Source of the DNA: Xanthomarina arctica | GTDB taxonomy: Bacteria; Bacteroidota; Bacteroidia; Flavobacteriales; Flavobacteriaceae | Assembly (NCBI RefSeq): GCF_014638915.1 | Contig: NZ_BMFQ01000001.1 | Location: 620,001 to 684,000 of the forward strand | Direction: 5' to 3' | DNA: 64,000 nucleotides | Shown: positions 22,933 through 56,663 of the stretch, piece after piece | Layout of the letters: each line of letters begins with the position of its first letter | Numbering within the stretch: position 1 is the first letter of the stretch | Program-made: the position numbers and the translations under genes | Notes under the pieces: model-generated | What the model was told of the DNA's origin: nothing | The model's database searches: none | What the model saw: only the letters and a program-made list of their open reading frames with translations

Positions 22933-24804
22933 TTACCTCCCCATATAAACTAAAAGTACAGATACATCACTAGGTGAAACTCCGCTAATACGTGAAGCCT
23001 GAGAGATGGTTACTGGCTGAATTTTATTCAATTTTTCACGAGCCTCTAAGCTCATTGATTTTAAATTTGAGTAATCAAAATTCTTAGGAATCTTAATGTT
23101 TTCTAATCGATTTAATTTGTCGGCATTATTCTTTTCCTTCTCTATATAACCAGAATATTTAATTTGAATTTCTGCCTGTTCGATAATCTCATTATCCAAA
23201 TCATGCTCTTGAATATAGCTCTCAACAGATGCTACTTGACGCATGTCATCTATGCTGATATTTGGTCTAGAAAATATTTTTTGCATCTTATCAGACTGCT
23301 TCATTAAAGCTGAATCTTTAGCTTCCAGAATAGGATTAATCTCTTCGTGCTTCACACTTGTATCTGCAAAAAACTTAACAAAAGCTTCAGATTTAGTTTG
23401 CTTATCTTCCATACGTCTCATACGTTTTTCAGAAGCCAAACCTAATTCAAACGACTTAGGAGTCAATCGGAAATCGGCATTATCCTGACGCAAGAGCGTT
23501 CTATATTCTGCACGAGAAGTAAACATTCTGTATGGCTCTTCCGTACCCTTCGTAATTAAATCGTCAATTAAAACACCTATATAAGCTTCACTCCTAGTAA
23601 GAATAAAAGGATCTCTTTCCTGCACTTTCAAAGCCGCATTTATACCAGCCATTAATCCTTGAGAAGCCGCTTCTTCATAACCCGTTGTTCCGTTAATCTG
23701 ACCTGCGAAATACAAACCTTCAACTAACTTAGTTTCTAAGGTATGTTGTAATTGTGTTGGCGGAAAATAATCGTATTCAATAGCATACCCTGGACGAAAA
23801 AATTTAACCTTCTCAAATCCCGCAACAGAACTTAATGCTTTAAATTGCACGTCTTCTGGTAAGGAAGTTGAGAAACCATTGATATACATTTCAACTGTAT
23901 TCCAACCTTCAGGCTCTACAAATAATTGATGTCTGTCTTTGTCAGCAAACCTATTTATTTTATCCTCGATAGAAGGACAATATCTTGGCCCTAAGCTTTT
24001 AATTCTACCATTAAACATTGGAGACCTATCAAAACCTTCACGAAGTAAATCGTGTACCTCAGAACTAGTATAAGTTAAATAACAAGAGCGCTGTTTTGTC
24101 AACGGTTTAGTAACATCTAAATATGAAAATTTCTCAGGATTTTCGTCTCCTGGTTGTTCCGTCATTTTAGAAAAATCTAAAGATCTTCCATCCACTCTTG
24201 GAGGTGTTCCAGTTTTCATTCTCCCAGATTCGAATCCAAAACCTACTAATTGTTCTGTAATACCAGTAGCAGCTTTTTCACCTGCTCTTCCCCCACCAAA
24301 ATTCTTATCACCTATATGGATAAGTCCATTCAAAAAAGTCCCATTAGTCAACACAACCGACTTAGATCTAATCTCTAAACCAAGAGATGTTTTAACTCCA
24401 GCCACTTTATTGTTTTCAACAATAAGACCGGAAACCATTTCCTGATAGAAGTCTAAATTTTCTGTACCCTCTAACATCAAACGCCAATCTTCAGCAAAAC
24501 GCATACGGTCACTTTGCACACGAGGACTCCACATGGCAGGTCCTTTAGACTTGTTAAGCATTTTAAACTGAATAGCAGAGGTATCACTAACAATTCCACT
24601 ATACCCACCTAGAGCATCTATCTCTCTAACAATTTGTCCTTTTGCAATTCCTCCCATAGCAGGATTACAAGACATTTGAGCAATGTTCTGTAGATTCATG
24701 GTAATAAGCAAGGTTTTGCTTCCCATGTTCGCCGCAGCTGCCGCAGCTTCGCTTCCAGCGTGCCCACCACCAACTACTATAACATCATATACTGTATTAA
24801 ACAT
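22933..24804 (-). CDS. mnmG: tRNA uridine-5-carboxymethylaminomethyl(34) synthesis enzyme
   Basis: 623 residues, full length. The FAD-binding GGGHAGSEAA begins at residue 12, and NPAMGGIAKGQIVREIDALGG and GEKAATGI are MnmG signatures. With MnmE it modifies U34 of several tRNAs. mnmG is commonly close to the replication origin. Here it is flanked on both sides by parS-like sites, and one lies inside its 5' leader. A promoter with a -33 and a -7 element lies at 24921-24953. Confidence 0.97.
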   Translation of the reverse strand: MFNTVYDVIVVGGGHAGSEAAAAAANMGSKTLLITMNLQNIAQMSCNPAMGGIAKGQIVREIDALGGYSGIVSDTSAIQFKMLNKSKGPAMWSPRVQSDRMRFAEDWRLMLEGTENLDFYQEMVSGLIVENNKVAGVKTSLGLEIRSKSVVLTNGTFLNGLIHIGDKNFGGGRAGEKAATGITEQLVGFGFESGRMKTGTPPRVDGRSLDFSKMTEQPGDENPEKFSYLDVTKPLTKQRSCYLTYTSSEVHDLLREGFDRSPMFNGRIKSLGPRYCPSIEDKINRFADKDRHQLFVEPEGWNTVEMYINGFSTSLPEDVQFKALSSVAGFEKVKFFRPGYAIEYDYFPPTQLQHTLETKLVEGLYFAGQINGTTGYEEAASQGLMAGINAALKVQERDPFILTRSEAYIGVLIDDLITKGTEEPYRMFTSRAEYRTLLRQDNADFRLTPKSFELGLASEKRMRRMEDKQTKSEAFVKFFADTSVKHEEINPILEAKDSALMKQSDKMQKIFSRPNISIDDMRQVASVESYIQEHDLDNEIIEQAEIQIKYSGYIEKEKNNADKLNRLENIKIPKNFDYSNLKSMSLEAREKLNKIQPVTISQASRISGVSPSDVSVLLVYMGR

Positions 24805-41106: not shown

Positions 41107-43341
41107 TTATTCCTCATGCTTACCAATTAAGGTAAAATCTAAATGTTTTTTAACTAAATCTGTATCTTTTACCTTAACTACTACCTCGTCTCCAAGTTGA
41201 TACATGGTTTTAGAATTCTTTCCAATAAGTGCATAATGGTCTTCATCGAATACATAATGATCGTCTTTCATGTTTCTAACACTCACCATTCCTTCACATT
41301 TATTAGAGATAATTTCTACATAAATACCCCAATCTGTAACTCCTGAAATAACTCCAACAAACTCTTCATCTTTATGATCTTGCATAAATCTAATTTGCAT
41401 GTATTTAATGGAATCTCTTTCAGCCTTGGTTGCTAAATTCTCCATGTTACTTGAATGGTTGCATTTATCTTCGTAAATATCTTCACTTACCGATTTTCCA
41501 CCATCTAAATAATGCTGTAACAAGCGATGAGCCATAACATCTGGATAACGTCGAATTGGTGATGTAAAGTGACTGTAATAATCGAAAGCCAAACCGTAAT
41601 GCCCAATATTCTTTGTTGTATACTCGGCTTTACTCATGGTTCTAATGGTTAAAGTATCCACTAAATTTTGTTCCTTTTTACCGTTTACTTCACTTAATAA
41701 ATTATTTAAAGATGAAGCAATACTCTTTCTATCCTTAAAATTTAATTTATAACCAAAACGACCAACTACATTTTGTAATGCCGCTAATTTACTTTCATCC
41801 GGTTCGTCGTGAACACGATATATAAAAGTCTTTTTTGGAGATTGTTTTCCTATAAATTCAGCAACTTTTCTGTTTGCTAACAACATGAATTCTTCAATTA
41901 GTTTGTTAGCATCTTTACTAGTTTTAAAGAAGACACCAACTGGGTTAGCTTCTTCATCTAAATTAAATTTCACTTCCACTTTATCGAACGAAATAGCTCC
42001 AGAACTCATACGTTTTGTACGCATAATTTTAGAAAGTTCGTTTAATTTTAAAGTAGCAAAAGCTACTTCTGGCGTGGTTTGATATTCTGAACCTGAAATT
42101 GCAACTTCAGCTGGAATAGTGGTATCTATGGATGATATATCTGCCTTCTTAGGAACAACAGGATTATTTTCTATAATAGCTTGTGCTTCTTCGTAAGCAA
42201 ATCTAGCATCACTATAAGTTACAGTTCTTCCAAACCATTCATTTTTAACTTCTGCTTTATTATTTATTTGAAAAACCGCTGAAAAAGTATATTTCTCTTC
42301 GTTTGGTCTTAGTGAACAAGCATTATTAGATAAAACCTCTGGAAGCATTGGTACCACACGATCTACTAAATAAACCGAGGTTGCTCTTTCATAAGCTTCA
42401 TCGTCTAAAATAGTATCTGGTTGCAAGTAATGAGACACATCTGCAATATGAATTCCTATTTCATATAAACCATTATCTAAAACTTGAAATGATAAAGCAT
42501 CATCAAAATCTTTAGCATCTTTTGGATCTATAGTAAAGGTTAGCACATCTCGCATATCGCGACGTTTGGCTATTTCTTCTGGAGTAATGGAAGTATCAAT
42601 TTTGTTCGCAAATTCTTCTACTTCTGGAGGAAATTCCAATGGCAAACCATATTCAGCTAAAATGGCATGAATTTCTGTATTATGCTCGCCAGGTTTTCCT
42701 AAAACTTGCAACACATGTCCATTTGGAGAATCGGAATTATCCGGCCAATCATCTAGAGAAACTAGAACTTTATCGCCATCTTCCGCTTTATTAATTTTAC
42801 TTATAGGTACAAAGATATCTTTGTACATTTTAGTGCCATCCACTACTACAAAAGCAAAATTATTATTTTTACTAAACTGAATAACACCAACATATTCGCT
42901 CTTTGCGCGTTTTATAATACTGGTAATTTCGCCTTCACGTTTCCCACGTTTTAAGCGTTTGTAAGAATAAAATTCTACTTCATCTCCGTGAAGCGCTTTG
43001 TTCATGTTATTTGAAGCTATATATGTATCTTCTTCAAAATCGTCGCAAATAATATATCCTGCACCTCTGGAAGCCATATCGACTCTACCAATGTGATATT
43101 CTGTATTAACAATGGCTTTAAATTTACCACGTTCTACTTCTTCAATTTCTTTTTCAATTTTAAGTTGTTGAAGTTTTTTTATAATTTGATTGCGACTGCT
43201 AGCATCGTTAACGCCTAGTTTTGAAGCAATTTGTTTATAGTTAAAGGATTGGTTTCTATCTTTTTTTAAAATACTTAGAATGGTATTTGTAAGGTTGGAA
43301 ATCTTGTTATTTGAAGGTTTCCTGTGTTTCTTTTTTGTCAT
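41107..43341 (-). CDS. rnr: Ribonuclease R
   Basis: 744 residues. An N-terminal winged-helix-like domain (about 13-75), cold-shock domains (about 80-225), the RNB catalytic domain with FTIDPKDAKDFDDALSF (about 270-286, four Asp for Mg2+) and a C-terminal S1 domain (about 655-740). A 3'-5' exoribonuclease that degrades structured RNA and takes part in rRNA and mRNA decay. Confidence 0.96.
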   Translation of the reverse strand: MTKKKHRKPSNNKISNLTNTILSILKKDRNQSFNYKQIASKLGVNDASSRNQIIKKLQQLKIEKEIEEVERGKFKAIVNTEYHIGRVDMASRGAGYIICDDFEEDTYIASNNMNKALHGDEVEFYSYKRLKRGKREGEITSIIKRAKSEYVGVIQFSKNNNFAFVVVDGTKMYKDIFVPISKINKAEDGDKVLVSLDDWPDNSDSPNGHVLQVLGKPGEHNTEIHAILAEYGLPLEFPPEVEEFANKIDTSITPEEIAKRRDMRDVLTFTIDPKDAKDFDDALSFQVLDNGLYEIGIHIADVSHYLQPDTILDDEAYERATSVYLVDRVVPMLPEVLSNNACSLRPNEEKYTFSAVFQINNKAEVKNEWFGRTVTYSDARFAYEEAQAIIENNPVVPKKADISSIDTTIPAEVAISGSEYQTTPEVAFATLKLNELSKIMRTKRMSSGAISFDKVEVKFNLDEEANPVGVFFKTSKDANKLIEEFMLLANRKVAEFIGKQSPKKTFIYRVHDEPDESKLAALQNVVGRFGYKLNFKDRKSIASSLNNLLSEVNGKKEQNLVDTLTIRTMSKAEYTTKNIGHYGLAFDYYSHFTSPIRRYPDVMAHRLLQHYLDGGKSVSEDIYEDKCNHSSNMENLATKAERDSIKYMQIRFMQDHKDEEFVGVISGVTDWGIYVEIISNKCEGMVSVRNMKDDHYVFDEDHYALIGKNSKTMYQLGDEVVVKVKDTDLVKKHLDFTLIGKHEE

Positions 43342-43586: not shown

Positions 43587-45047
43587 TTACTCAATAACAA
43601 GTTGCTTGGTGGCTTTTCCTTGACTTGTTTCTATTTCTACTAAATACATACCTGGAGATAAATGAGTAGTATTTATAACTTTTTCTTTTGAAGTACTAAT
43701 AAACTGCCCTAAAGTATTATAAATATTTGCTTGTTTAAACTCTAATCCTTCTTGTAACTGAATGTTTACTTGATTATTGGCAGGATTTGGATATAAACTA
43801 AATTTAGATAATACAAATTCGTCTGATGATAAAACTTCGCTTAAATCGTATACCTTAACTTGACCTGAATTAATTCCGTTTTCAGAATTAGAATGTGAAC
43901 CAATAATAATGGTATGACTATCACCAGATAAACTAATATTACTACCAAAATAATCATTTTCGTTTTCTCCATTTATACTATTCCCTATTTGCGTCCAACT
44001 ATTCAATATGTACTTAAATATCTTTACTTGACCTGAATTCCACAAATTATCTTCATTATTAATACAACCAATTGCTAATATTGATCCATCTGAAGATAAA
44101 CTAACACTTGTTCCTAAATTCTCACCAGGAATATCACCAAGTATATTATTTCCTATTTGTGTCCATACTCCTAATATATTTTCATAAACTTTTACTTGTC
44201 CTAAAAAATCATTATTATTTCCTGAAGCACCTATAGCTATAATTTCACTATTAGAAGATATTGAAACAGTCCAACCAAAAAAATCCTCAGCTTCATCACC
44301 ATTTAAATCTTGTCCTATTTGTGTCCATATTCCTTCTAAATTTTCATAAACTTTTACTTGACCTGATTGATTTCCATTAATATCATGGCCTAAAGCACCT
44401 ATTATTAAAGTATTACCATCTGATGATAAGTCAATACTATCTCCAAACACATCACTAATAAATTCACCTTCTATATCAGCTCCTATTTGCATCCAAACTT
44501 CACCAACGTATTCGTAAACTCTAACATAACCTGATAAATTATCATTATACGTATAACTAGGTGCACCCATTGCCACTATGGTACCATCTGATGAAATACT
44601 AACTGATAATCCCAATTGATCTAATGATGTACTTCCATTCAAATCTTGACCAATTTGTGTCCAAACATCATTAATATTCTCATAAACTCTTACTTGTCCT
44701 GATGCAGGACCATTTGCATCATTAGCATAAGCACCTATAGCAAGTATATTACCGTTTGCTGATAAGCTAGTGCTTACACCAAAACCTTCATATGATATTC
44801 CATTACTAATATCTTGTCCTATTTGTGTCCAAACACCACTAATATTTTCATAAACTGCTACAAATCCAGAAGATTCACCATATTCAGAACTGTACATAGA
44901 AGTAATTGCCACTATGTTACCATTTGAAGAAATTGAAACATCCTTACCTAAATAATCATAAGCTTCTTCTCCAAAAAAAGTTTGACCAATCTGAGTTTGA
45001 CTAAAAATTAAAAAAGGAAATAGTAAAAAAAGTAAAGTATGTTTCAT
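43587..45047 (-). CDS. T9SS-exported seven-repeat beta-propeller protein (copy B)
   Basis: 486 residues from the ATG at 45047, which starts a clean signal peptide (MKHTLLFLLFPFLIFSQ); the ATG at 45080 adds 11 residues before it. Seven repeats of about 57 residues, each with an S-[IL]-S-x-[DN]-G-x-I-x-AIG core and an SGQVKVYEN...WTQIGQD turn, predict one seven-bladed propeller of the FG-GAP or integrin-like type. The C-terminus (about residue 415 onward, SLYPNPANNQ and LSPGMYLVEI) is a type A T9SS sorting domain. Probably secreted or surface attached. Tandem paralogue of the next gene. Confidence 0.9.
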   Translation of the reverse strand: MKHTLLFLLFPFLIFSQTQIGQTFFGEEAYDYLGKDVSISSNGNIVAITSMYSSEYGESSGFVAVYENISGVWTQIGQDISNGISYEGFGVSTSLSANGNILAIGAYANDANGPASGQVRVYENINDVWTQIGQDLNGSTSLDQLGLSVSISSDGTIVAMGAPSYTYNDNLSGYVRVYEYVGEVWMQIGADIEGEFISDVFGDSIDLSSDGNTLIIGALGHDINGNQSGQVKVYENLEGIWTQIGQDLNGDEAEDFFGWTVSISSNSEIIAIGASGNNNDFLGQVKVYENILGVWTQIGNNILGDIPGENLGTSVSLSSDGSILAIGCINNEDNLWNSGQVKIFKYILNSWTQIGNSINGENENDYFGSNISLSGDSHTIIIGSHSNSENGINSGQVKVYDLSEVLSSDEFVLSKFSLYPNPANNQVNIQLQEGLEFKQANIYNTLGQFISTSKEKVINTTHLSPGMYLVEIETSQGKATKQLVIE

Positions 45048-45086
45048 AATAAGTAAGATTTGGATAGTATAAAGATACAAAATATG

Positions 45087-46583
45087 TTACTCTATAACTA
45101 ATTGCTTAGTTGCTTTTCCTTGATTGGTTTCTATTTCTAATAAATACATTCCTGGAGATAAATGAGTGGTATTAATTACTTTTTCTTTTGAAGTACTAAT
45201 AAACTGACCTAAAGTATTATAAATATTTACTTGTTTTAACTCTAAATCTTCTTGAAATTGGATGTTTACTTGGTTAATAGCTGGGTTTGGGTATAAACTA
45301 AATTTAGATAATACAAATTCGTCTGATGATAAAACTTCGCTTAAATCGTATACTTTAACTTGTCCAGAATCATTACCATTTCCAGCATTATGGATAGCTC
45401 CAAAAGCTACTATACTACCATCGCTAGATATAGAAACACTATAACCACTAAGATCTTGAGCATCTTCACCATCCATATCATTTCCTATTTGGGTCCAAGA
45501 CCCATCTTGATTTTTATAAACCCTAACATGACCAGAATTAAGACCATTTACGCCATTATTAAATTCAGCACCAATAGCAATTATAGTACCATCACTTGAT
45601 AAAGAGACGCTATTACCACTAAGATCTCCTTCTGCTTCACCATCTATATCGTCACCTATTTGAGTCCAAGAACTAGCTTGATTTACATAAACTCTTACAT
45701 GTCCAGAATTAATACCATTTCCATCGTTATCTGGAGTTCCAATAGCTACTATACTACCATCACTAGATAAGGAGACACTATCACCATATTCATCAAATTC
45801 ATCACCAGTATCTTCAGGAATAATATCAGCGCCTATTTGATTCCATACTTCAGATACAGCATCGTATTCATGAATTCTTATTTGTCCAGGATTACCTTCA
45901 ATTCCAATAGCCCCAACAGCTAATATAGTACCATCACTGGATAAAGAGAGTCCACTACCCATTTGATTATTAATAGCTTCGCCATCTATATCTTGTCCTA
46001 TTTGAGTCCAAGATCCACCTTGATTTTTATAAACTCTGACATGACCAGAACCACTACCATTTTCATTATTAGCTAGAGCACTAATAGCAACAATACTACC
46101 ATCACTAGATAAGGAAACTTTCCTACCACTGCGATCACCACTACGTTCCCCATCTATATCCTCGCCTAATTGAGTCCAAGTAGTCGTTACAGAATTGTAT
46201 TCATAAACTCTTACATGTCCAGAACTAAACCCATTTGCTCCATAATTATTAGGCGCACCAATAGAAACTATAGTACCATTGCTAGATAAAGAAACACTTG
46301 TACCACTTTGATCACCAGAAGCTTCCCCATCTATATCTTGTCCTATTTGAGTCCAAATTCCACTTATATTTTCATAAATTCTTACATGACCAGGTGCTTG
46401 ATATATACCACCACTAGTTCTATTATAACGACCTCCAATAGCTATAATATTGCCATCACTAGATAAAGAGACACTATAACCACTTTCATCACCTGCAGAT
46501 TCACCATCTATTTCAACACCTATTTGAGTTTGCGAATGACTTAAAAAAGGTATAAATATTAATAATTGTAATATTTTTTTCAT
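45087..46583 (-). CDS. T9SS-exported seven-repeat beta-propeller protein (copy A)
   Basis: 498 residues with signal peptide (ILQLLIFIPFLSHSQ). Seven repeats with the core SLSSDGxIxAIG and SGHVRVYxN...WTQIG(Q/D)DIDGE, one likely seven-bladed propeller. Acidic DGE and DxDGE turns may bind calcium, as in FG-GAP repeats. The T9SS type A domain (SLYPNPAINQ, LSPGMYLLEI) is nearly the same as in the downstream copy although the propellers differ. The stop is 39 bp from the start of copy B, so they are probably cotranscribed. Confidence 0.9.
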   Translation of the reverse strand: MKKILQLLIFIPFLSHSQTQIGVEIDGESAGDESGYSVSLSSDGNIIAIGGRYNRTSGGIYQAPGHVRIYENISGIWTQIGQDIDGEASGDQSGTSVSLSSNGTIVSIGAPNNYGANGFSSGHVRVYEYNSVTTTWTQLGEDIDGERSGDRSGRKVSLSSDGSIVAISALANNENGSGSGHVRVYKNQGGSWTQIGQDIDGEAINNQMGSGLSLSSDGTILAVGAIGIEGNPGQIRIHEYDAVSEVWNQIGADIIPEDTGDEFDEYGDSVSLSSDGSIVAIGTPDNDGNGINSGHVRVYVNQASSWTQIGDDIDGEAEGDLSGNSVSLSSDGTIIAIGAEFNNGVNGLNSGHVRVYKNQDGSWTQIGNDMDGEDAQDLSGYSVSISSDGSIVAFGAIHNAGNGNDSGQVKVYDLSEVLSSDEFVLSKFSLYPNPAINQVNIQFQEDLELKQVNIYNTLGQFISTSKEKVINTTHLSPGMYLLEIETNQGKATKQLVIE

Positions 46584-47340
46584 GATTTGGTTTTAGTTTT
46601 TTATCAATTTAATGGCTTTAACACAATGATAAATAAATTATATTACTTTTTAAATAATATGAAATAAAACCCTTATTTTTTGTCCTAAAATTATAATTTA
46701 CTATCTATTATTAGACTTTAATAAATTTTAATAACTGTATAAATTTATAGGTTTTATATTTTACTATGACAATCCAGAAATTAATTCTTTAAAGCTGAAT
46801 TTTATAGTTATCCACATATATATAGATAATCAACTTTTTCTTTTAAAATTTAAAAAAATATTGTTGATGATTATAGTGTGTTAATAGCGTCTATAACTTT
46901 ATTGAATTTTATTTTGATACTATCTTATTGACGTTCTATTAATATGTAATTAACAATTACTTTACATTTAAGAGCTTCATTTATAGCGTTATTTAAAAAG
47001 CTATTAACAACTTTTACGCGTTGTTAACAAGTGGTTTTTATTAGAAATGACTCATAAGATTTTCTATTTTTAATGTTTATAACCTAAAAATTTGGTCTGA
47101 AAACTTGTCTAAAAATAGATGAGTTATATTTAGGTATTTTGATCCCTATTTTTGATTGGAAAAATTACTGGATAAACCATGTTTTAGTTTTAAATAATTA
47201 TAAACAGTTATTAACAGGTTATGAGTTTTAATATGGATAGCTATTAACAATTGAATTTTCTTGTTTACTAAAGGTATAAAAAATATAGAGGTATGTTACT
47301 ACATTTTGTACCTTTACAGTAACAAAAACACAACTAAAAA
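46584..47340. other. oriC: Candidate chromosomal replication origin (oriC)
   Basis: 757 bp without a gene, very AT-rich. It contains one perfect DnaA box TTATCCACA (46808-46816) and repeated TATTAACA motifs: GCTATTAACA at 46879-46888 (minus strand), 47000-47009 and 47240-47249, TTATTAACA at 47208-47216, TAATTAACA at 46947-46955, TTGTTAACAA at 47021-47030. Strand composition changes here: in sampled minus-strand gene lines, C exceeds G on the plus strand left of it, and G is equal or higher right of it. Genes leave it divergently on both sides. Inference, not proven. Confidence 0.6.
46808..46816 (+). promoter_or_regulatory. DnaA box
   Basis: TTATCCACA, identical to the canonical high-affinity DnaA box, in the AT-rich divergent intergenic region proposed as origin. 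Confidence 0.6.
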
Positions 47341-47775
47341 ATGAAAATTTCAATAGGTAACGATCACGCGGGAACCGAGTATAAATTTGCTATTCTGAAG
47401 CATTTAGAAGCTAAAGGATATGTTGTTACAAATTATGGTACAGACTCCAACGAGAGTGTTGATTATCCAGACTTTGTACATCCTGTTGCTCAAGATGTGG
47501 AATCTAAAAAAGCAGATTTCGGTATTATTATTTGTGGGAGTGGTAATGGTGCAAACATGACAGCTAATAAACATCAAGGTGTTCGTTCTGCATTATGTTG
47601 GACTAAAGAAATTGTTGCCCTTGCCAGACAGCATAATAATGCGAATATTTTAAGTATTCCATCACGTTTTACAGCTTTACCACAAGCTATTGAAATGGTA
47701 GATACTTTTTTTGAAACCGCTTTTGAAGGTGGACGTCATGAAAACCGAGTAAATAAAATTGCTGTGTCTTGTTAA
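47341..47775 (+). CDS. rpiB: Ribose 5-phosphate isomerase B
   Basis: 144 residues. IGNDHAGTEYK (4-14), IICGSGNGANMTANK (about 62-76, with catalytic Cys64) and HNNANILSIPSR are the RpiB/LacAB signatures. It interconverts ribose 5-phosphate and ribulose 5-phosphate in the pentose phosphate pathway. First plus-strand gene right of the putative origin, and directly followed by the CDF gene without a gap (stop next to ATG). Confidence 0.95.
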   Translation: MKISIGNDHAGTEYKFAILKHLEAKGYVVTNYGTDSNESVDYPDFVHPVAQDVESKKADFGIIICGSGNGANMTANKHQGVRSALCWTKEIVALARQHNNANILSIPSRFTALPQAIEMVDTFFETAFEGGRHENRVNKIAVSC

Positions 47776-55802: not shown

Positions 55803-56663
55803 TTAGTTAAATATTTCATTACAGGTATAAACATTATTTAGTCGCACGCCTTTTTCGGTATGTTTTACTGTAATAATCTCGTTATGTGCATCGTGTTCCA
55901 AAAATAAGTAATAATTATTGCTTGCTGCTAAATTCAGGAATTTTTCTTTTTCATCTAAAGTTAATAATGGTCTCGTATCGTAGCCCATTACAAACGGAAG
56001 TGGAATATGTCCAGCTGTTGGCAATAAATCTGCCACAAAACAAATGGTTTTTCCTTTATAATTTATCATAGGAATCATTTGTTTATCTGTATGTCCATTA
56101 GCAAAGAAAATATCAAATCCTAGAGCAGAATTTTTTAAGAAATCTTGATCCGGAAGTGCCGTGAATTTTAATTGACCACTTTCTTCTAAGGGTAAAATGT
56201 TTTCTTTAAGAAATGAAGCTTTTTCTCTATTATTAGGTTCTGTTGCCCATTTCCAATGATCTTGATTACTCCAAAACTGCGCATTCTTAAATGCAGGTTC
56301 GTAGCCTGTTTTATCTTTATTCCATTGCGCAGATCCGCCACAATGGTCAAAATGAAGATGCGTCATAAAGACATCAGTAATATCGTCTCGATGAAAGCCA
56401 AGTTGTTTTAGTGAGTTATCTATGGAATGGTTTCCCCATTGAAAATAATAGCCAAAGAACTTATCGCTTTGTTTATTTCCCATGCCTGTATCTATTAAAG
56501 TAAGCTTGTCTCCATCTTCAATTAATAAACATCGTGCAGCAATATCAATCATGTTGTTGCTGTCGGCAGGATTTGTTCTTTGCCATAAAGATTTTGGAAC
56601 CACGCCAAACATGGCACCACCATCTAATTTAAAATTTCCAGATTCAATAGGATATAGTTTCAT
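55803..56663 (-). CDS. Metallo-beta-lactamase-fold hydrolase
   Basis: 286 residues, no signal peptide. THLHFDHCGG (near 107-116) is the HxHxDH motif with metal ligands; later FLEHDAHNE carries a further His. The family covers lactonases, glyoxalase-II-like and many other hydrolases, and the sequence resembles quorum-quenching-lactonase-type proteins, but the substrate cannot be assigned. Divergent from the DUF202 gene. Confidence 0.85.
   Translation of the reverse strand: MKLYPIESGNFKLDGGAMFGVVPKSLWQRTNPADSNNMIDIAARCLLIEDGDKLTLIDTGMGNKQSDKFFGYYFQWGNHSIDNSLKQLGFHRDDITDVFMTHLHFDHCGGSAQWNKDKTGYEPAFKNAQFWSNQDHWKWATEPNNREKASFLKENILPLEESGQLKFTALPDQDFLKNSALGFDIFFANGHTDKQMIPMINYKGKTICFVADLLPTAGHIPLPFVMGYDTRPLLTLDEKEKFLNLAASNNYYLFLEHDAHNEIITVKHTEKGVRLNNVYTCNEIFN

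Follow-up and report, generated by a model that had tools for sequence, protein, structure and literature searches.

A conserved DnaA-box core upstream of rpiB marks the probable chromosomal replication origin of Xanthomarina arctica

Judging from sequence comparison, the 757-bp intergenic gap located immediately upstream of rpiB in Xanthomarina arctica is very probably the chromosomal replication origin (oriC) of this bacterium [Table 1]. The assignment is made because the DnaA-box-like sites clustered in the gap are conserved, include a two-box core, and coincide in two complete relatives with the switch in strand composition. A first-pass annotation of the window (the whole 64,000-nucleotide stretch of DNA analysed here) had placed an origin at 46.6-47.3 kb; this location is supported by the box cluster and by the skew of the relatives rather than by the hand count of bases on which it had been proposed.

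Table 1 Features of the probable origin region and related sites (window coordinates unless a contig is given)
Feature	Position	Strand	Remarks
mnmG	22933-24804		22 kb from gap
rnr, ribonuclease R	41107-43341	-	TIGR02063 above cut-off; usual left neighbour in relatives
Two 'propeller' genes	43587-46583	-	ORFs 43587-45080 and 45087-46583, between rnr and the probable origin; T9SS sorting tail in the second ORF
Probable oriC region, AT-rich gap	46584-47340	.	between minus-strand T9SS-tailed gene and rpiB (plus)
Conserved core, model R1	46802-46916	+	one own-genome match, E 7.8e-19; window among the 24 training rows
DnaA box 1, TTATCCACA	46808-46816	+	exact match, classical
AT-rich stretch between boxes, candidate DNA unwinding element	46817-46861	.	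from sequence
Five 3-base units GAT ATT AGT AGT TGT	46862-46876	+	read 3'->5' away from box 2
DnaA box 2, CTATTAACA	46879-46887	-	sequence match
DnaA box-like site CTATTAACA	47001-47009	+	-340 from rpiB here and in L025, -341 in L033
DnaA box-like site TTATAAACA	47074-47082	-	-267/-268 here, L025, L028, L033
DnaA box-like site TTATAAACA	47198-47206	+	tandem with 47208 site; -143/-144 here, L025, L028, L033
DnaA box-like site TTATTAACA	47208-47216	+	-133/-134 here, L025, L028, L033
DnaA box-like site CTATTAACA	47241-47249	+	-100/-101 here, L025, L028, L033
rpiB	47341-47775	+	TIGR01120 above cut-off
Own-genome tandem box pair (L322)	G000:C3:109005-109033		upstream of HU-like gene

DnaA-box-like sites and a two-box core in the gap

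The gap is 79.4% AT and no longer gap exists in the window, in agreement with the long AT-rich intergenic region described in the first-pass annotation; blastn of the gap against its own genome (an assembly of 20 contigs) returned one match. A 600-bp interval starting at 46801 holds seven sites of the form [TC]TAT[TCA][CA]ACA, compared to a mean of 0.14 and a maximum of 2 elsewhere in the 464 kb of contig analysed for boxes and skew. The cluster thus stands well above background, though its boxes are mostly non-classical, the sites other than box 1 reading YTATTAACA or TTATAAACA, one to two bases from the classical TTATNCACA. Across the whole window, TTATNCACA with at most one mismatch was not enriched (86 found vs 100 expected), and TTATTAACA with at most one mismatch was found 92 times vs 73 expected, a count reached by none of 100 shuffles. 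The distance to rpiB was preserved for most of the box-like sites in three relatives of the same genus (L025, L028 and L033).

The leftmost two boxes, TTATCCACA and the opposite-strand CTATTAACA, have their starts 71 bp apart, and the AT-rich sequence that they flank was kept in relatives in a TTTTCTTTTAAAATTTAAAAAAATAA-like form. Together, the two facing boxes and the stretch between them make up a core of 115 bp, for which a sequence profile without structure was built from 24 aligned rows. Box 1 conformed to TTATNMACA in all 24 rows, 23 of which had been picked by that very pattern. All rows except that of the window having been selected by the two-box pattern, conservation of the boxes in this alignment reflects selection, and that of the sequence between them does not. 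An AT-rich candidate unwinding element stands beside the boxes, both in the composition of the gap and in the conserved inter-box stretch.

Strand composition in X. arctica and in complete relatives

Genes left of the gap lie mostly on the minus strand (33 of 40 in the ORF list used here, against 34 of 43 in the earlier count), and the first three genes to its right are on the plus strand, as had been reported. It had also been claimed, from counts inside minus-strand genes, that the plus strand changes from C-rich to G-rich at the gap. The general trend was recovered in part, plus-strand skew being negative along most of the left side and either weaker or positive along much of the right side; the sign flip inside minus-strand genes did not hold up. 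Counted over their whole length, the 33 minus-strand genes on the left contained 4943 G and 6778 C (skew -0.157, or -0.143 for the 31 genes other than the two 'propeller' genes) and the 7 on the right 1346 G and 1654 C (skew -0.103), such that both sides are C-rich and differ by a modest shift (Mann-Whitney one-sided p = 0.034). We take the 116 C and 137 G of the earlier right-side hand count to be a sampling effect. The plus strand of the two 'propeller' genes was strongly C-rich (skew -0.30 and -0.31), which exaggerates the local skew.

The raw cumulative G-C curve over the 464 kb reached its minimum at window position 56,639, ~9.3 kb to the right of the gap. When fourfold-degenerate sites were modelled together with gene strand, a switch was present in the X. 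arctica genome (G000) with a gain of 34.0 ln units; among 500 permutations the gain stayed below 9.7 in 95% and reached 15.2 at most. The 25 best switch positions were scattered between window coordinates -77.5 kb and +47.5 kb. The skew of this genome alone places the switch broadly and does not single out the gap, and the evidence of the window by itself is a weak hint of an origin.

Two complete chromosomes gave a sharper picture. From G021, a member of the same family, 40 stretches totalling 795 kb of 3.93 Mb were sampled; the modelled switch was best after 915.9 kb (bootstrap 907.0-927.3 kb, ~20 kb wide), and the core, at 911.7 kb, lay ~4 kb from this position and 3.2 ln units below the best. 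The terminus of this chromosome fell near 2.9 Mb, roughly opposite the switch. From G026, which belongs to another family, 20 stretches totalling 400 kb of 3.07 Mb placed the switch best after 1458.0 kb (bootstrap 1451.4-1458.0 kb, 7 kb wide), with the gap before rpiB near 1457.5 kb and 1.7 ln units below the best; the model yielded no core match in G026, and box-like sites were present. Both chromosomes were sampled more densely around rpiB, which sharpens a switch and should not create one. In ten more complete chromosomes, compared over 20 kb on each side, raw skew rose in 9 of 10 at the element (mean +0.096) and in 6 of 10 at a control point 900 kb away (mean +0.005); the corresponding strand-adjusted rises were found in 9 of 10 (mean +0.120) vs 8 of 10 (mean +0.035). 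A C-rich to G-rich switch was thus found at the site in G021 and G026, and broadly in X. arctica.

That the change in composition might stem from gene orientation and the odd 'propeller' genes only, with no origin involved, would agree with the weak flip of the window and with the extreme values of these two genes. We find this reading barely credible, given that the fourfold-site switch survived gene-strand modelling in G000, G021 and G026, that the chromosome-wide samples of the latter two contradict it, and that conservation of the box core is independent of composition. The gap could otherwise hold a DnaA-titrating or DnaA-reactivating cluster, comparable to datA or DARS, near a true oriC situated some kilobases off. 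A box cluster alone is no proof of initiation, and both the breadth of the own-genome skew and the offset of the G021 switch would leave room for such an arrangement; however, the best switch of G026 came within ~0.5 kb of the gap with a narrow bootstrap interval, no second box cluster was found in 464 kb, and an unwinding site would be expected to look like this, with AT-rich sequence flanked by facing boxes. We therefore attach very little weight to a neighbouring titration cluster and retain the gap itself as the probable origin.

Spread of the core and its position upstream of rpiB

The two-box pattern alone, searched for exactly, occurred in 64 of 149 sampled genomes of the family (12 of 149 for a reversed-pattern control) and stood within 5 kb upstream of rpiB in 57 of these 64. 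The core model extended the count to 139 of the 149 genomes; the core was not detected in the other ten, all of which have rpiB and dnaA. A single match was obtained in X. arctica and in 129 of the 139 genomes overall; of the 10 genomes with a second match, 8 had it at the same place on the other strand and the remaining two had it elsewhere, with E values of 8e-4 and 1e-3. Run over 2.46 Mb of stretches from 13 genomes, the profile gave 12 hits below 1e-5, all of them the elements of 12 genomes (some training rows included) and none elsewhere.

Among 80 named loci, of which the nearest were from Xanthomarina, Mangrovimonas and Formosa, the core was hit in 67; it was upstream of rpiB in 66 of the 76 loci having at least 1 kb of upstream sequence, and rnr was upstream of rpiB in 68 of the 71 having at least 4.5 kb. 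The end of rnr was found 0.5-1.3 kb from rpiB in 54 of the 80. With rnr and the core both upstream of rpiB in most named loci, the usual layout is rnr - probable origin - rpiB, divergent, and since the two genes are oriented away from the probable origin, both would point along the replication forks. An oriC near dnaA or dnaN is common and not required. dnaA is not adjacent here, residing on contig C2 in X. arctica and ~911 kb, 1.18 Mb and 1.37 Mb from the element in G021, G026 and G037, respectively.

This close association invites the reading of the conserved stretch as a long leader of rpiB or a region that regulates it, consisting of promoters or a structured RNA and unrelated to replication; 135 of the 139 cores indeed lay on the same strand within 2.9 kb upstream of rpiB, at a median distance of 526 bp. 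The core was nonetheless kept in G089 and G142, both sampled genomes without an rpiB match, and was separated from rpiB by 18 kb in G072 and by a contig boundary in G131 (a weak match, E 2.6e-6), with core-rpiB distances elsewhere reaching 1.1-3.4 kb. Promoter-like sites occurred at shuffle level (10 found vs 9.2 expected), and a regulatory role would leave the skew switches at the gap unexplained. An RNA leader of rpiB was rejected, an Rfam search of the stretch with E up to 1 having returned no match and no consensus RNA structure having been found when one was looked for. The chance that the stretch serves rpiB rather than replication is in our estimation very small. In G072, in G131 and in a Winogradskyella psychrotolerans locus (L261), whose rpiB showed no core in the 6 kb upstream, origin and rpiB may have become separated.

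Beyond the family sample, 26 of 98 genomes of the wider order matched the core: all 17 members of the family and, outside it, 9 of 81 genomes, several of them weakly, these 9 belonging to f2, f7 and f14. In G037 (f14) the match was again directly upstream of rpiB. All 15 sampled genomes of f16 (0.3-0.6 Mb), which are probably insect symbionts, had neither dnaA nor the core, a result in keeping with an origin role of the core and confounded by genome reduction. A published Blattabacterium genome is likewise described, in the available text, as devoid of dnaA and of DnaA boxes (PMC2768785).

Three-base units, possible mechanism and published origin predictions

Five three-base units with the consensus 3'-GAT-AKT-AKT-RGT-RGT-5' occupy 15 bases beside box 2, from which they are separated by a 2-base gap. 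The last position of the unit was a T in 115 of 120 cells over the 24 rows, compared to 40 and 11 in the other two phases; in 47 further distinct sequences, the in-phase T was present in 222 of 235 cells, compared to 88 and 27. These counts come from related sequences and are hence not independent. At 820 other TGTTAATA sites, the periodicity was absent, the three phases standing at 0.35, 0.39 and 0.34. Twelve of 67 loci, in which box 2 fell outside TGTTDATW (6 with TGTGAATAG, 2 with TGTTCATAG and 4 with no box form), were excluded from the periodicity count. The variants of box 2 found in named relatives, CTATTCACA in 6 loci and CTATGAACA in 2, represent the kind of variation expected of a DnaA box.

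A related arrangement is known from the bacterial origin unwinding system (BUS), described in the accessible part of PMC8287927 as a DnaA box accompanied by repeated three-base DnaA-trios, with GAT nearest the box; the rule given there requires a minimum of three consecutive 3'-NAN-5' trios no farther than 16 bp from a DnaA box, and spacer lengths peak at 10-13. The present core shares with it a box beside three-base units and the GAT nearest the box, but its units, GAT-AKT-AKT-RGT-RGT, stand 2 bases from the box and differ from 3'-NAN-5' trios. At box 2 the published rule was satisfied in 15 of 24 rows, at box 1 in 21 of 24, and shuffles did as well; for this reason, the units were not filed under BUS. 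They are perhaps a diverged form of DnaA-trio that would work in a similar way.

In the mechanism proposed for the probable origin, DnaA would bind the boxes of the gap, nucleate on box 2 on the minus strand and extend leftwards along the three-base units into the AT-rich stretch, where the duplex would open; helicase would then be loaded at the opened duplex and replication proceed bidirectionally, the boxes at 47198-47249 possibly helping to build or regulate the DnaA complex.

Another arrangement of boxes was found away from the gap. The tandem pair TTATYAACA-N11-TTATYAACA was present in 130 of the 149 genomes sampled from the family (a reversed-pattern control gave 1 of 149); 30 of the 35 loci examined (L318-L352) had it in the interval separating fmt from an HU-like gene, 90-118 bp ahead of the start of the latter. 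The HU-like gene of X. arctica matched HU and IHF models, below their equivalog cut-offs. An extra copy of the pair was seen in the same genome (G000:C4:453505-453533); the pairs at L333, L341, L344 and L349 had no adjoining fmt or HU-like gene, and that at L343 had fmt and no HU-like match by the pattern used. The pair might possibly mediate control of HU by DnaA or act as a titration site.

Taken as a whole, these observations could mean that the Flavobacteriaceae possess one conserved origin type in which a diverged DnaA-trio, with a constant last T instead of a constant middle A, has DnaA loaded onto single strands by a changed triplet rule, and in which HU expression may also be coupled to the cell cycle through a tandem pair of the TTATYAACA-type box; we put this forward tentatively and consider it somewhat less probable than its opposite. 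Tying the probable origin of this large marine and soil family to one short recognisable core would serve for the correct rotation of genomes, for growth-rate estimates from coverage slopes and for origin-based shuttle plasmids, and the conserved three-base units would offer a direct test of drift in the DnaA-trio rule. With regard to rotation, assemblies in this family sometimes begin at dnaA; one reported in PMC9867689 was, according to the text available, started there, far from the origin. The G021 assembly was likewise started at dnaA, far from its probable origin.

Published predictions for related bacteria assign the origin to several neighbours. In the accessible text of the respective papers, Ori-Finder placed the oriC of Mariniflexile litorale (PMC11278836) and that of Algorimicrobium (PMC12843772) beside mnmG, in agreement with GC skew, dnaA being out of line with the skew plot in the former (PMC11278836), and gltX was named as the origin neighbour in Flavobacterium enshiense (PMC9867689). 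Mariniflexile and Algorimicrobium are both Flavobacteriaceae, yet the neighbour reported for them is mnmG, which in X. arctica is 22 kb away, and not the rnr-rpiB gap. In the available material of PMC11278836, the text has oriC beside mnmG and ter beside leuB, and the labels of the figure legend are reversed. The predicted oriC of Elizabethkingia meningoseptica, another genus that we compared by description only, was also far from dnaA in the part of PMC8994065 accessible. Within the accessible portions of the open-licence PMC literature (PMC12843772, PMC11278836, PMC8287927, PMC8994065, PMC2768785, PMC9864904, PMC9867689, PMC5306329), we found no description of the box core, of its spread or of its three-base units. 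The units of the core are possibly new.

A close parallel is Tenacibaculum, a genus of the Flavobacteriaceae. As stated in the available text of PMC9864904, its chromosomes were oriented by rpiB; six of the seven circular ones had the Ori-Finder origin adjacent to rpiB, and the remaining one had it nearby. The predicted origin lies next to rpiB in both cases; that paper, as far as its accessible sections go, gives the neighbouring gene, whereas the box core, its spacing and its spread through the family are described here. The location beside rpiB has already been published as a prediction, and the gap is a well-located member of this known origin type.
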